A stretch of 64,000 nucleotides of DNA, taken from Clostridiales bacterium (GTDB taxonomy: Bacteria > Bacillota > Sulfobacillia > CADDZV01). A program made the translations under genes and the position numbers. The notes beneath the pieces were generated by a model. It searched no databases. It had not been told where the DNA came from and was given only the letters and a program-made list of their open reading frames with translations. Below, piece after piece: positions 55,106 to 60,264 of this stretch. How positions within the stretch are numbered: the stretch's first letter is position 1; every line of letters begins with the position of its first letter. Location of the stretch: assembly GCA_902812875.1 (NCBI GenBank), contig CADDZV010000006.1:1-64000 (forward strand), given 5' to 3'.

Positions 55106-55498
55106 ATGTGGGTGATCGTCGCGGCCGCCGCCACCGGTATCCTGAGCGGCATGGCCGTAGGCGGCGGGTCTTTGCTGGTACCGGTGCTGGTCTACCTTTT
55201 CGGGGTTCCCCAGCACCAGGCCCAGGGAGTGACCCTCGTGAGCTTTGTGCCGGTGGCGGCGGTGGCGGTGTACGCGCACTGGCGAAGCCGCAACATCATC
55301 TGGGGCATCTCTGCCGGCATCCTCCTCGGGAGCCTGGCCGGGGCAGTGGCGGGAGCGACGCTGGCCGCGGTAACCAAGGCCGCCGTGCTGCGGCGGGTGT
55401 TTGGCCTCTACCTGGCCGGCATGGGCCTGTATGCCTTTTTCCAGCGTGATGAGCCCGCTAGTGCACAGGGGCAAGGAAAAGGCCAATCAGATAGGTGA
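55106..55498 (+). CDS. TauE/SafE-family half-transporter, second gene
   Basis: The 130-residue partner has the matching repeat (GILSGMAVGGGSLLVPVLVYL) and about four helices. GGGGGAG lies 8 bases before the ATG. It overlaps the convergent iron transporter gene by 41 bases at its 3' end. Two half-genes with opposite topology potential are typical of split members of this family. Confidence 0.75.
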   Translation: MWVIVAAAATGILSGMAVGGGSLLVPVLVYLFGVPQHQAQGVTLVSFVPVAAVAVYAHWRSRNIIWGISAGILLGSLAGAVAGATLAAVTKAAVLRRVFGLYLAGMGLYAFFQRDEPASAQGQGKGQSDR

Positions 55499-56612
55499 TG
55501 GTGGCTTCTGCCACTCCGATGACGGTCATCTCCATACCGCTGGCGAGCCAGGACCGGCCCGTGATGATGGTCTTGGCGGCACCCACCGCAAAATGTGCGA
55601 GGGTGCTGATGATGGCGGAGGCGACGATCGCTGGTACACCCTGGGTGAAGAGAAACGGGATGACGGGTATGAGTGCCCCCACCGCTGTCGACACGACCGA
55701 CGAAACCGCGGCCCGGATGGGATTGGGGAAGTTGGCCTCCGAAAGCCCAAGCTCGTGATGGGCAAGCGTTTTCAGTAGTTGCTCCGGATTTTGTGCCATG
55801 CGCTCGGCGAGGAGGCCGGCTTCCTGCTCGCTAAGTCCGGAAAGCTCATAGAACAGTTCCAGCTCTTGTTTTTCTTCCTCGGGGTCTTGGGAAATCTCGT
55901 CGCGCTCGCGGGCCAGCTCTGCTTCGTAAATCTCGCGTTCCGACTTGGCTGCCAGGTAGGCGCCGGAGCCCATCGACAAGGCGCTGGCCAAAAGCCCTGC
56001 CATGCCGGCGACCACCACGACGTGCCCACCGCCGGAGTAACCGGCCATGCCCGAGACAATGCCGAACACCGCCCCCAAACCGTCGTTGACCCCGTAAATG
56101 GCATCGCCTACCCAGCCGCTGCCGGTGCGGTGCCACCGTTCGCGGCCTTGCAGGGCCGCGAGGGCGTGCTCCGGCCCGGCCTCGCGCAAAAGCGAACGGA
56201 TGACCGACGAATGGGCTTTCTCCTCCAGGCGCACCCGCCCGAGTACCTCCCGGGCGTCCCTGCCGAGGATACCAGCCTGGGCACCGTAGCGGGCGGCATC
56301 CTTGTGTTCGGCCATCTCCACCTGCCGCAGCGCCGCCGTTGTACCGGCCAGTTGCCAAAGGCGCGTCCGCAAGCGGCTGAAAAAGCTGCTTGGCTCGTCC
56401 GGCAACGGTTCTCCCAGGGAAGCCAGCTGGGCGGCCCACTTGGAGGCATGTTCTTCCTCGGCGGCCGCCAGCTTGAGAAGCACGCCACGGCGCCGGGCAT
56501 CGGTCTCAGCTTCCGCCAGGGCTCGGTAAAGACGCGCCCCGTCCCGTTCCCGCCGCCAGTTGGCCTTCAAGGTACGTACAAGTTCGTCACGATTTGCCGC
56601 TTGGTCAGTCAT
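55458..56612 (-). CDS. Ferritin-like/VIT1 fusion iron or manganese transporter
   Basis: The 384-residue protein joins an N-terminal rubrerythrin/ferritin-like domain (residues 1-140; paired E-x-x-H motifs AEEEHA and LEEKAHS) to a VIT1/CCC1 transport domain from about 165 (DAIYGVNDGLGAVFGIV, with the MGSGAYLA turn). The ferritin part may sense or oxidise Fe(II) and the membrane part exports it, as in MbfA-type proteins. It is the last minus-strand gene before the transporter operon upstream of it. Confidence 0.88.
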   Translation of the reverse strand: MTDQAANRDELVRTLKANWRRERDGARLYRALAEAETDARRRGVLLKLAAAEEEHASKWAAQLASLGEPLPDEPSSFFSRLRTRLWQLAGTTAALRQVEMAEHKDAARYGAQAGILGRDAREVLGRVRLEEKAHSSVIRSLLREAGPEHALAALQGRERWHRTGSGWVGDAIYGVNDGLGAVFGIVSGMAGYSGGGHVVVVAGMAGLLASALSMGSGAYLAAKSEREIYEAELARERDEISQDPEEEKQELELFYELSGLSEQEAGLLAERMAQNPEQLLKTLAHHELGLSEANFPNPIRAAVSSVVSTAVGALIPVIPFLFTQGVPAIVASAIISTLAHFAVGAAKTIITGRSWLASGMEMTVIGVAEATITYLIGLFLAPVH

Positions 56613-56628: not shown

Positions 56629-57582
56629 TTACCCTGCCTTTAGCCGCGGGTCCAGGGCATCCCGCAGGCCGTCGCCCAAAAGGTTCAGGGCCAGTACGGT
56701 CACGGTGATCGCAAAGCCCGGGAAAAACACTGCCCACGGGGCGGAGATGATGTAGTTCCGCGAGCGGCTGAGCATGGCTCCCCATTCCGGCTGCGGTAGC
56801 TGGGCGCCGAGACCCAGGAAGCCAAGGGCCGCTGCCTCCAGAATCGCCTCGGAGATGCCAAGCGTGGCCCGCACGATAATCGGTGCCAGCACGTTCGGGA
56901 GTATATGCCTGCGGATGATCCGGCCGGTGGGTACCCCGAGGGCCCGGGCCGACTCCACGTATTCCTGCTCCCGCACTGCCAGCACCGAGCCGCGCACGAT
57001 GCGGGCGTAGCTTGGAATCTCCACGATGCCGATGGCGATCATGGCCTTGTTGAGGCCATGGCCAAGCATGACCATGAGGGCCAGGGCCAAAAGTATGGAA
57101 GGAAACGCCAAAAGCACGTCCATGATCCGCATGATCACGTCATCGAGCGGCCCACCGTAATAACCGGCCACTGCTCCCAGGATCGTCCCCAGTATAAGGG
57201 CGATGCTCACTGCCACGAATCCCACTTCCAGGGATAGGCGGGCGCCGAAGATGACCCGCGAGAGGATGTCCCGGCCGAGCTCGTCCGTGCCCATGAGATG
57301 CGACCAGCTGGGGCGCTGCAGCACCGCCCGCAGGTCACCCTGGATGGGGCTATAGGGGGCAAACACCGGTGCAAACACTGCCACTACCACAATGAATGCG
57401 AGAAGGTACAGGCCGGCCATGGCGGCCCGGTTTCGTTTGAGTCTTTTCCACACCTCGCCTAGCTGCAGGTCGGCGGCCGTCTTGCGGAGGACGGCACCGA
57501 TCCGGCGGAATAAAGCCGGGACGGCGCGGCCGGCGCCTCGCTGGCGTTTTGATGCCGGGATGGGAGAAAAATCCTCGCTCAT
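56629..57582 (-). CDS. Peptide/nickel ABC permease, DppC type
   Basis: The 317-residue permease has an N-terminal cytoplasmic arm, the OppC_N region, and the EAA loop with EYVESARALGVPTGRIIRRHILPN. It has six helices and ends DALDPRLKAG, typical of DppC/OppC. AAAGGAG precedes the ATG. It follows the DppB gene by 11 bases. No ATPase genes (DppD/DppF) are visible here, so they lie elsewhere. Confidence 0.92.
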   Translation of the reverse strand: MSEDFSPIPASKRQRGAGRAVPALFRRIGAVLRKTAADLQLGEVWKRLKRNRAAMAGLYLLAFIVVVAVFAPVFAPYSPIQGDLRAVLQRPSWSHLMGTDELGRDILSRVIFGARLSLEVGFVAVSIALILGTILGAVAGYYGGPLDDVIMRIMDVLLAFPSILLALALMVMLGHGLNKAMIAIGIVEIPSYARIVRGSVLAVREQEYVESARALGVPTGRIIRRHILPNVLAPIIVRATLGISEAILEAAALGFLGLGAQLPQPEWGAMLSRSRNYIISAPWAVFFPGFAITVTVLALNLLGDGLRDALDPRLKAG

Positions 57583-57593
57583 ACGTGGCTCCT

Positions 57594-58595
57594 TTAACTG
57601 TAGCGAATACGCGGATCCAGGAACGCGTACACGATGTCTACCACCAGGTTGACGACCACGAACACGGTGGCCACCAGCAACACTGTTCCCTGGATCAGTG
57701 GAATATCCGAGTTCTGCACAGCGGAAACGGCGAGGCTGCCGATCCCCGGCCAGGAGAACACCGTCTCCGTAAGCACCGCCCCACCGAGGAGATAGCCGAA
57801 CTGCAACCCCACGACCGTGACCACGGGAATCATGGCGTTTTTCAGGGCATGCCGAAAGATCACACGGCGTTCGGGCACGCCCTTCGCCCTGGCCGTGCGG
57901 ATGTAGTCCTGCCGCACGACCTCCAGCATGCTGGAACGCGTCATCCGGGCGATTAGGCCGGTTGAATAGGCCGCCAGGGCCGTAGCCGGCAGGATGATGT
58001 GCCGCACGGCATCGCGGAAGGCGGGCCAGTTGTGCGTGACGGCCGCTTCGATGATGTAAAAGCCGGTGCGGAAATGGTAGCCGGCCTCCAGAGTGATGCG
58101 CCCGTCCACCGGCAGCCAGTGCAGATACACGGCGAACAGCTCGATCAGCATGAGCCCGAGCCAGAAAATAGGCATGGAAACGCCCAGCAGGGCTCCCACC
58201 ATGGCCAGATGGTCAATGACGGTGTATTGGCGGATGGCGGAAACAATGCCGGCCAAAATCCCCACCACGGACGCGATAAGAATGGCGGCCAGCGTAAGTT
58301 CGATCGTGTGCGGGAACCGGCGGCCGATTTCGTAGGTGACCGGAGCCCGCGTAAGATACGACCGCCCGAGATCGCCATGTAAGGCTTTCCACAGGAAGTC
58401 GCCGTACTGCACCCACACCGGGCGATCGAGGCCAAGCTCGTGTCGCAGGGCCGCCATCTGGGCCGGGGTGGCATGCTGCCCCAGGATGATCCCGGTGGGG
58501 TCAGGGATGACCTGCATTACCAGAAACACTGCCAGTGTGACACCCAGGAGCACCGGCACCAGCATCAGAAGTCTGCGGATGATATATGAGACCAT
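57594..58595 (-). CDS. Peptide/nickel ABC permease, DppB type
   Basis: The 333-residue permease starts MVSYIIRRLLMLVPVLLGVT as expected for DppB/OppB. The EAA loop reads DYIRTARAKGVPERRVIFRHALKN and it ends FLDPRIRYS. AAGGAG lies 7 bases before the ATG chosen; a longer frame upstream has no site. It pairs with DppC and the upstream binding protein. Confidence 0.92.
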   Translation of the reverse strand: MVSYIIRRLLMLVPVLLGVTLAVFLVMQVIPDPTGIILGQHATPAQMAALRHELGLDRPVWVQYGDFLWKALHGDLGRSYLTRAPVTYEIGRRFPHTIELTLAAILIASVVGILAGIVSAIRQYTVIDHLAMVGALLGVSMPIFWLGLMLIELFAVYLHWLPVDGRITLEAGYHFRTGFYIIEAAVTHNWPAFRDAVRHIILPATALAAYSTGLIARMTRSSMLEVVRQDYIRTARAKGVPERRVIFRHALKNAMIPVVTVVGLQFGYLLGGAVLTETVFSWPGIGSLAVSAVQNSDIPLIQGTVLLVATVFVVVNLVVDIVYAFLDPRIRYS

Positions 58596-58680
58596 GGGTA
58601 TGCTCCTTGTGGGCTTGGCCGCCTGCCGGCGGGGAGGGGCGCCGGGTTCCCCTCCCCGCAACAGCCGGAGTTCGCCGCTT

Positions 58681-60264
58681 CTACTTGGGCACTTTGTATC
58701 CGGCTTCCGCCAAGAGCTTCTTGGCCTCGGCCGGGTTGTACTCGTACGGTTTCAGGTTCGGGTCGTATCCGAGCATGCCCGGCGGCAGGGGACCGTTGGC
58801 CACTACCGCGATGCCCTTGTACAGGCTGTCCACGATGGCCTGCCGGTCGATGGCCATGCTCACCGCCTGGCGCACCTTGGGATTGTCAAACGGCGGCCGG
58901 TCCACCCGGAAGGCCAGGTAGTTGATGTTCATGCCGGGGCCGGACAGGAAGTTGATGTCCGGGCTGTTCTTCAGGCTGTCGACATCGGCCGGATCGATAC
59001 CGTCGATGATATCCACCGAGCCGGCCAGCAGTTCCTGGGCCCGCACCGTGTTGTCCTTGGTCACCTTGAAGATGACCTCGTCAACCTTGGGTTTGCCGTC
59101 CCAGTAGTTCGGATTGGCCTTCAGCACGATCTGCTGGTCTGGATCCCACTTTTCGAAGATGAACGGGCCGGTGCCAACCGGATGGCGCCCGAAATCAGCC
59201 CCGTACTTCTTGAGGGCTGTCGGGCTGACGATCGGCGCGGCCGGGCCCATGGCCAGGTTGAGCAGGAACGGAGCGTTCGGCTCCTTCAGCGTGATCTTGA
59301 CCGTGTAGTCGTCGACCTTCTCCACCTTGTCCACGTCGCCGAAGGTGAACGAGGCGTACGGCATGTCGGCGGTGGCGTTCTGTCCCACCTGGCGGCCGAT
59401 GCTGGCCACGACGGCGTCGGCGTTAAAGGGCGTGCCGTCGTGGAATTTCACGCCCTTGCGGAGGTGGAAGGTATAGACAAGCCCGTCGTCAGAAATCTGC
59501 CAGTCCGTGGCCAGGGCCGGCTTGATCTTGGTGGTGCCGGGCTCGAACGTGACGAGGGTGTCGTAAATGTTTTCGATGACCTTGGCGGATTCACCATCGT
59601 CGATCAGAGCCGGGTCCAGGGACAGGGAATCAGCCCCGCGGGCGTAAACCAGCACCTTCTGCTGGCCGGCGGGGACCTCCTTGTCAACGTTGTGCAAAAA
59701 GATGGACCCGGTGGGATACAGCACAAACCCGGTAACGTTCTTCCGGGTGGCGACCATGTCATTGGCGTGGCTGATGAACACCCAGGGGGCGTCCTGCACG
59801 ATGAGCTGGTCTGCCTGCTTGTACAGTTGGTCGCGCTTTTGCGGATCGGATTCCTTCTGGGCCTGGGTCAGAAGATCATCGACCTGGGGGTTCTTGTACC
59901 CCATGGCATTGAGGGCCCCGATCTGGCTGGAATGGAAATGGACGTAAAGGAAGTTGTCGGGGTCGCCGTTGTCGCCTATCCAGCCGAACAGGTACATTTG
60001 GCCGTTGCCTTTGCTCAGGATCTCGTCCTTGTACTCCGTCCAGCCGAACTGGTGGATGTTGACGACCGCGCCGAGGTTCTGCTGCAGCTGCTGCTGGATG
60101 GCCTCGGCCAGCTTGTCGCCTGCCGGGTTATAGGGCCGGGGGTTTGTGTAGGTGTAGAAATCGATGGTCAGCGGCTGTTTCTGGGTGCATCCGGCCAGGG
60201 CGAAGGCCCCCACTACCATCGCCACCAGCAGGATGATCGCTGCCACACGCTTTTGGAACTCCAC
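58681..60264 (-). CDS. Circularly permuted peptide-binding lipoprotein (SBP family 5)
   Basis: The 527-residue protein has a lipoprotein signal (LAGC, Cys26). The order of its family 5 binding domains is swapped. Residues 32-196 match the usual C-terminal part (YTYTNPRPYNPAG, GWIGDNGDPDNFLY, YKNPQVDDLL, DAPWVFISH). Residues 203-527 match the usual N-terminal part (LVYARGADSLSLDPAL, LRKGVKFHDGTPF, VGTGPFIFEKW), and the end LLAEAGYKVPK would normally lead straight into residue 32. Length equals a normal DppA. GTG start 7 bases after GGGAGGGTG. It should bind peptides for the DppBC pair. Confidence 0.85.
   Translation of the reverse strand: MEFQKRVAAIILLVAMVVGAFALAGCTQKQPLTIDFYTYTNPRPYNPAGDKLAEAIQQQLQQNLGAVVNIHQFGWTEYKDEILSKGNGQMYLFGWIGDNGDPDNFLYVHFHSSQIGALNAMGYKNPQVDDLLTQAQKESDPQKRDQLYKQADQLIVQDAPWVFISHANDMVATRKNVTGFVLYPTGSIFLHNVDKEVPAGQQKVLVYARGADSLSLDPALIDDGESAKVIENIYDTLVTFEPGTTKIKPALATDWQISDDGLVYTFHLRKGVKFHDGTPFNADAVVASIGRQVGQNATADMPYASFTFGDVDKVEKVDDYTVKITLKEPNAPFLLNLAMGPAAPIVSPTALKKYGADFGRHPVGTGPFIFEKWDPDQQIVLKANPNYWDGKPKVDEVIFKVTKDNTVRAQELLAGSVDIIDGIDPADVDSLKNSPDINFLSGPGMNINYLAFRVDRPPFDNPKVRQAVSMAIDRQAIVDSLYKGIAVVANGPLPPGMLGYDPNLKPYEYNPAEAKKLLAEAGYKVPK

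Follow-up and report, generated by a model that had tools for sequence, protein, structure and literature searches.

One gene in the 64,000-nucleotide stretch of DNA analysed here (the window) raises the question of whether a substrate-binding lipoprotein can be circularly permuted and still serve its transporter. A preliminary description of the locus read the gene as a natural circular permutant which had kept its lipoprotein signal, and both the swapped order of its parts and its LAGC lipobox support that reading. The interpretation favoured here, with a probability of roughly 0.8, is that the product of this gene is a DppA-type (family 5, cluster C) lipoprotein, circularly permuted in nature, which still serves a DppBC-type ABC importer. 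Features of the locus are collected in Table 1.

Table 1. Features of the permuted gene and its operon (window positions; residues refer to the window protein unless DppA is named).
Feature	Position	Strand	Basis
CDS (stop codon included), circularly permuted family 5 (DppA-like) substrate-binding lipoprotein, 527 aa	58681..60264	-	open reading frame
Signal peptide and lipobox LAGC, residues 1-26; C26 is the predicted lipidated cysteine	60187..60264	-	sequence reading
Residues 32-194 = DppA 344-505, the C-terminal part of normal proteins	59683..60171	-	match to DppA; Pfam profile 276-366
Residues 195-202, linker from old C-terminus to old N-terminus	59659..59682	-	gap between the two DppA matches; similar linkers in L007-L010
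Residues 203-523 = DppA 1-340, the N-terminal part of normal proteins; LLAEAGY at the new C-terminus	58696..59658	-	match to DppA; Pfam profile 1-286
R43 codon = DppA R355 (precursor R383), binder of the dipeptide carboxyl group	60136..60138	-	DppA alignment; role from PMC12136057
D98 codon = DppA D408 (precursor D436), binder of the dipeptide amino group	59971..59973	-	DppA alignment; role from PMC12136057
DppB-type permease (start placed at the ATG of MVSYIIRR; the program-made ORF starts at 58661)	57594..58595	-	Pfam BPD_transp_1, E 1.4e-45
DppC-type permease	56629..57582	-	Pfam BPD_transp_1, E 1.2e-37, and OppC_N

The gene begins with a GTG start codon and its frame is intact, giving an open reading frame of the length of a single protein, as had been stated. 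The lipobox, identified by eye, occupies residues 23–26, and its G25 and C26 are invariant across group A, which comprises the window protein and its orthologues. With its predicted signal peptide, lipobox and cysteine, the protein would thus qualify as a bacterial lipoprotein. The Pfam family SBP_bac_5 (PF00496) matches it in two stretches of swapped order: profile positions 1–286 match the gene's 3′ part (E 1.4e-103) and positions 276–366 its 5′ part (E 4e-13). Together these reach 386.7 bits against a cut-off of 32.4, which places the protein in family 5 by sequence, while the linear order of that family, with the profile running from position 1 to its end, is absent because the parts are swapped. 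The protein is a permuted variant of family 5 and not a standard member. A phmmer comparison with E. coli DppA (1dpp) likewise gives the two parts in swapped order after the lipobox, separated by a linker of eight residues. The proposal that the terminal LLAEAGY would continue into residue 32 agrees with this comparison, in which the end of the chain reaches DppA 340 and residue 32 corresponds to DppA 344. The parts had also been described as swapped lobes. This is loose wording, as the cut at DppA 341–343 falls within what we take to be the C-lobe; the parts are swapped, and the chain now runs from a C-lobe part through the N-lobe to a second C-lobe part.

The order was further examined by rotating the mature window sequence at every position, in steps of three, against the normal-order protein L060, followed by a fine scan. 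The best rotation starts at residues 198–201 in the coarse scan and 197–201 in the fine scan; rotation as such had been foreseen, albeit at residue 196, which lies just outside this range. The local score against L060 is 1670 for the rotated sequence and 1189 for the unrotated one, and the rotated sequence aligns essentially end to end (65% identity over 491 aligned residues), as had been expected. L061 and L064 give the same rotation point as L060, and a normal-order control requires zero rotation. The swapped order is far beyond chance.

A structure model of the window protein, built from an alignment of 81 sequences made up in part of halves of normal-order proteins and including 29 permuted rows, is confident (mean pLDDT 96.3, pTM 0.92), also in the linker region. 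Such a prediction had been proposed at the outset; the model supersedes an earlier one built from five sequences, which was poor (pLDDT 50). The predicted packing of one half against the other appears to draw mainly on the 29 permuted rows. Foldseek matches of the model include GbpA, DppA and related structures over approximately 324–384 columns with TM 0.5–0.6, the partial coverage being expected of a sequential aligner applied to a permutant; the best PDB match of the protein is a glutathione-binding protein. The confident model and its DppA-type best matches, obtained by sequential alignment, point to the two-lobed cluster C fold. In the alignment with DppA, R43 and D98 fall on R355 and D408 (mature numbering), the residues that hold the two ends of the dipeptide, and their equivalents are kept in all six of the six group A permutants. 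In DppA, charge reversal of these residues abolishes dipeptide binding (PMC12136057). The case for a dipeptide site is argued from the conservation of this pair, which is also found in DppA-type proteins that take other ligands. The NCBIfam DppA equivalog is missed by the window protein (339.6 bits against a cut-off of 1005) and by normal-order L060 (353.7 bits), so that the shortfall is a matter of distance from enterobacterial DppA, not of permutation.

Judged by sequence and model, the window protein most likely functions as a dipeptide-binding protein in its permuted form. In the proposed mechanism, the old ends of the chain were joined by the short linker, and the chain was opened anew in the loop that follows the helix LLxEAGY (DppA 341–343). 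The protein would be exported and then lipidated at C26, so that its lipid tether would enter at the former 341–343 loop and not at the old N-terminus. The permuted chain is predicted to fold into the usual two-lobed flytrap, which would bind a short peptide, most likely a dipeptide, via R43 and D98, and would hand it to DppB and DppC. Both permease genes were said to follow the binding-protein gene, and Pfam finds both. The ATPase could come from a separate DppD–DppF pair that the genome carries on contig C38, where the 9 kb examined contain no binding protein, DppB or DppC. Downstream of DppC, the minus-strand gene at 55458–56612 encodes a VIT1-family protein (Pfam PF01988, residues 169–377) with approximately 165 extra residues before that domain, which are without a Pfam match. 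In the DppB sequence, the motif GQHAT mostly occupies the place of the scoop loop in group A and its near relatives, where E. coli DppB presumably has the pair E41–R42. It is found in permuted and normal systems alike, so the scoop loop does not track permutation.

The preliminary description had also raised the possibility of an assembly error. Tandem normal genes or a misjoin might have collapsed into a seemingly permuted open reading frame, and the source is indeed a draft genome of 88 contigs. Colinear full-length relatives with the same order and cut are nevertheless present in four other, independently assembled genomes of the class (G025, G056, G043 and G023; 58–61% identity), where orthologues had been predicted, and a Symbiobacteriaceae metagenome-assembled genome holds a more distant permuted relative (L059/L134). 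Permuted relatives also occur in single-contig genomes, among the large set here called group B, while in the window itself the frame is intact and the linker is conserved. The gene is real and assembly error is excluded, its residual chance being negligible. It is unlikely that the protein is a true permutant without a transport role, for example a sensor or a decaying gene. In favour of this, the operon contains neither DppD nor DppF, and the window's genome has other, normal-order family 5 proteins. Against it, the close normal-order systems L060 and L065 likewise lack adjacent ATPase genes, a DppD–DppF pair is present elsewhere in the same genome, and use as a binding protein is indicated by the intact frame, the kept DppB–DppC neighbours, the kept ligand residues and the orthologues in several genera. 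DppB and DppC lie 3′ of the permuted gene in every group A genome whose contig is long enough; that of G023 stops before them. DppBC proteins from the permuted systems fall together with those of their nearest normal-order counterparts (L012, L060 and L065) in one supported set (95/91), which indicates the same transporter with binding proteins of different order.

With E. coli DppA and family 5 cluster C (PF00496) the preferred reading, a permuted binding protein of a DppBC importer, shares the sequence of both parts, R355 and D408, the length and the DppB–DppC operon; in contrast to DppA, the window chain runs from DppA 344 round to about DppA 340, with its parts swapped and its lipid tether elsewhere. 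The nearest relative found is L060/L011 (metagenome-assembled genome DBS2-4.bin160), which has the same lipobox type and DppB/DppC neighbours and, at 65% identity after rotation, differs in its normal order. No report of a permuted family 5 or peptide-binding protein was found in the open-access literature, and no PDB chain with this order was found; in the printed alignments the window protein and a group B protein always match as two swapped pieces. The precedent found is Tp0684 (MglB-2) of Treponema pallidum, a naturally permuted, lipidated Type I glucose-binding ABC protein which has been shown to bind its ligand and to change conformation, and whose authors suggested tethering as a cause (PMC4990184). 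Both are lipidated, naturally permuted ABC binding proteins, but Tp0684 belongs to an unrelated family (Type I, cluster B sugar binder), has another cut and has a poorly conserved permuted part. The window protein does not show the Type I sugar-binding fold of the permuted class that includes MglB-2 ('Type Ic/Cluster Bc'): SBP_bac_5 is its only Pfam match, and the Foldseek matches listed are of family 5 type.

Permuted relatives were sought with a junction profile, in which a match must start in the C-part and continue through to the N-part within a single open reading frame. Within the window's class, 34 of 154 genomes have such a match; in a 399-genome sample of the phylum (Bacillota) the number is 27 (25 strong, plus G510 and G171). 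The view that a permuted secreted lipoprotein is unusual therefore needs revision, since these proteins are common in the class and have arisen repeatedly. Among the candidates considered, whose number per genome was capped, none lay above the thresholds in 83 genomes of the Desulfosporosinus class, nor in 299 Pseudomonadota genomes, which were searched without a positive control. Group B is 33–37% identical to the window protein. Group C consists of L169/L176 (G510), in a dppBCDF-type operon, and group D of L230–L234, with mutual identities of 37–63%, and the more distant L174 and L175. Those C-termini that were inspected stop at the helix before the loop (LLxEAGY or equivalent) or slightly past it, with the exception of L175, where the contig ends first. 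One group B gene, L026/L050 (G004:C44), is broken within its first part by an in-frame TAG, which may reflect a pseudogene, a sequencing error or recoding.

The sequences give good support to at least three independent permutations (groups A, B and C), all cut at one loop, as each group is closer to normal-order relatives than to the other groups and AU tests reject the joint groupings. The nearer normal-order relatives are L060 for A (69% and 57% for the two parts), and L170–L173 (approximately 55–58%) and L033 (42% and 53%) for the other two groups. Under the model used, the rejections amount to 166 lnL units for A with B, 159 for A with C and 178 for B with C. Group B as one clade is not rejected (p 0.69), in a tree from which de-duplication had dropped the window row. 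Group D is likely to be a fourth independent set; its branches and that of L045 are long. The cut loop common to all groups would suit a single permuted ancestor with the normal-order relatives as reversions, and yet the same AU rejections and the nearer normal-order relatives make this very improbable. Within group A the history is less clear, and the chance that order changed more than once there, through a second permutation, a reversion or recombination with a normal copy, is put slightly below even. In trees with a window row (entered as L006 or L160) the window groups with normal-order L011/L013 (support 92/91), and with both parts joined a single permuted group A clade is rejected (p 0.015 with six rows, p 0.003 without L134). 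With the parts taken apart, and in the DppBC trees, it is not rejected (p 0.07–0.28), and the window's linker resembles those of L007 and L008–L010. Either a single event with later reversion or recombination, or at least two events, could lie behind the sequences. The non-standard loop of L011 at the cut might have pointed to reversion, but this idea was abandoned because L020, a normal protein less closely related, has a similar loop.

Tandem duplication, which the preliminary description favoured, is a plausible origin of the permutation. Neither N-C-N nor C-N-C intermediate genes were seen, and the flanks of the window gene yielded no significant relic of the old ends. A wider proposal, that Bacillota family 5 lipoproteins were permuted at one loop at least three and probably at least four times, and that this was favoured because a shifted tether alters docking on the permease, is doubtful as a whole, any benefit of the moved lipid tether being conjecture. 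A natural circular permutation can seldom be compared with close orthologues of normal order that occupy the same operon. In this case pairs at approximately 65% identity are available, and together with independent lineages cut at the same loop they make the mechanism of permutation, the tolerance of the fold and any benefit of a shifted tether testable. For annotation, linear profiles score permuted proteins as two fragments.

Some further family 5 proteins depart from these patterns. In the window's own genome, the normal-order L004 (G000:C4:17463-18479) is long-branched and clusters with the permuted proteins of group B; neither DppB nor DppC was matched in its vicinity. The divergent permuted proteins L174 and L175 (G171) are 61% identical, and within the stretch examined each is adjoined by a molybdopterin oxidoreductase-like gene in place of DppBC. 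L045 (5270–7234, G001:C50), a permuted family 5 protein that stands alone, lacks a lipobox and has a hydrophobic segment past its new C-terminus, so it may be anchored from the other end. Approximately 7 kb beyond it, the same contig carries a normal-order set of binding protein, DppB and DppC.
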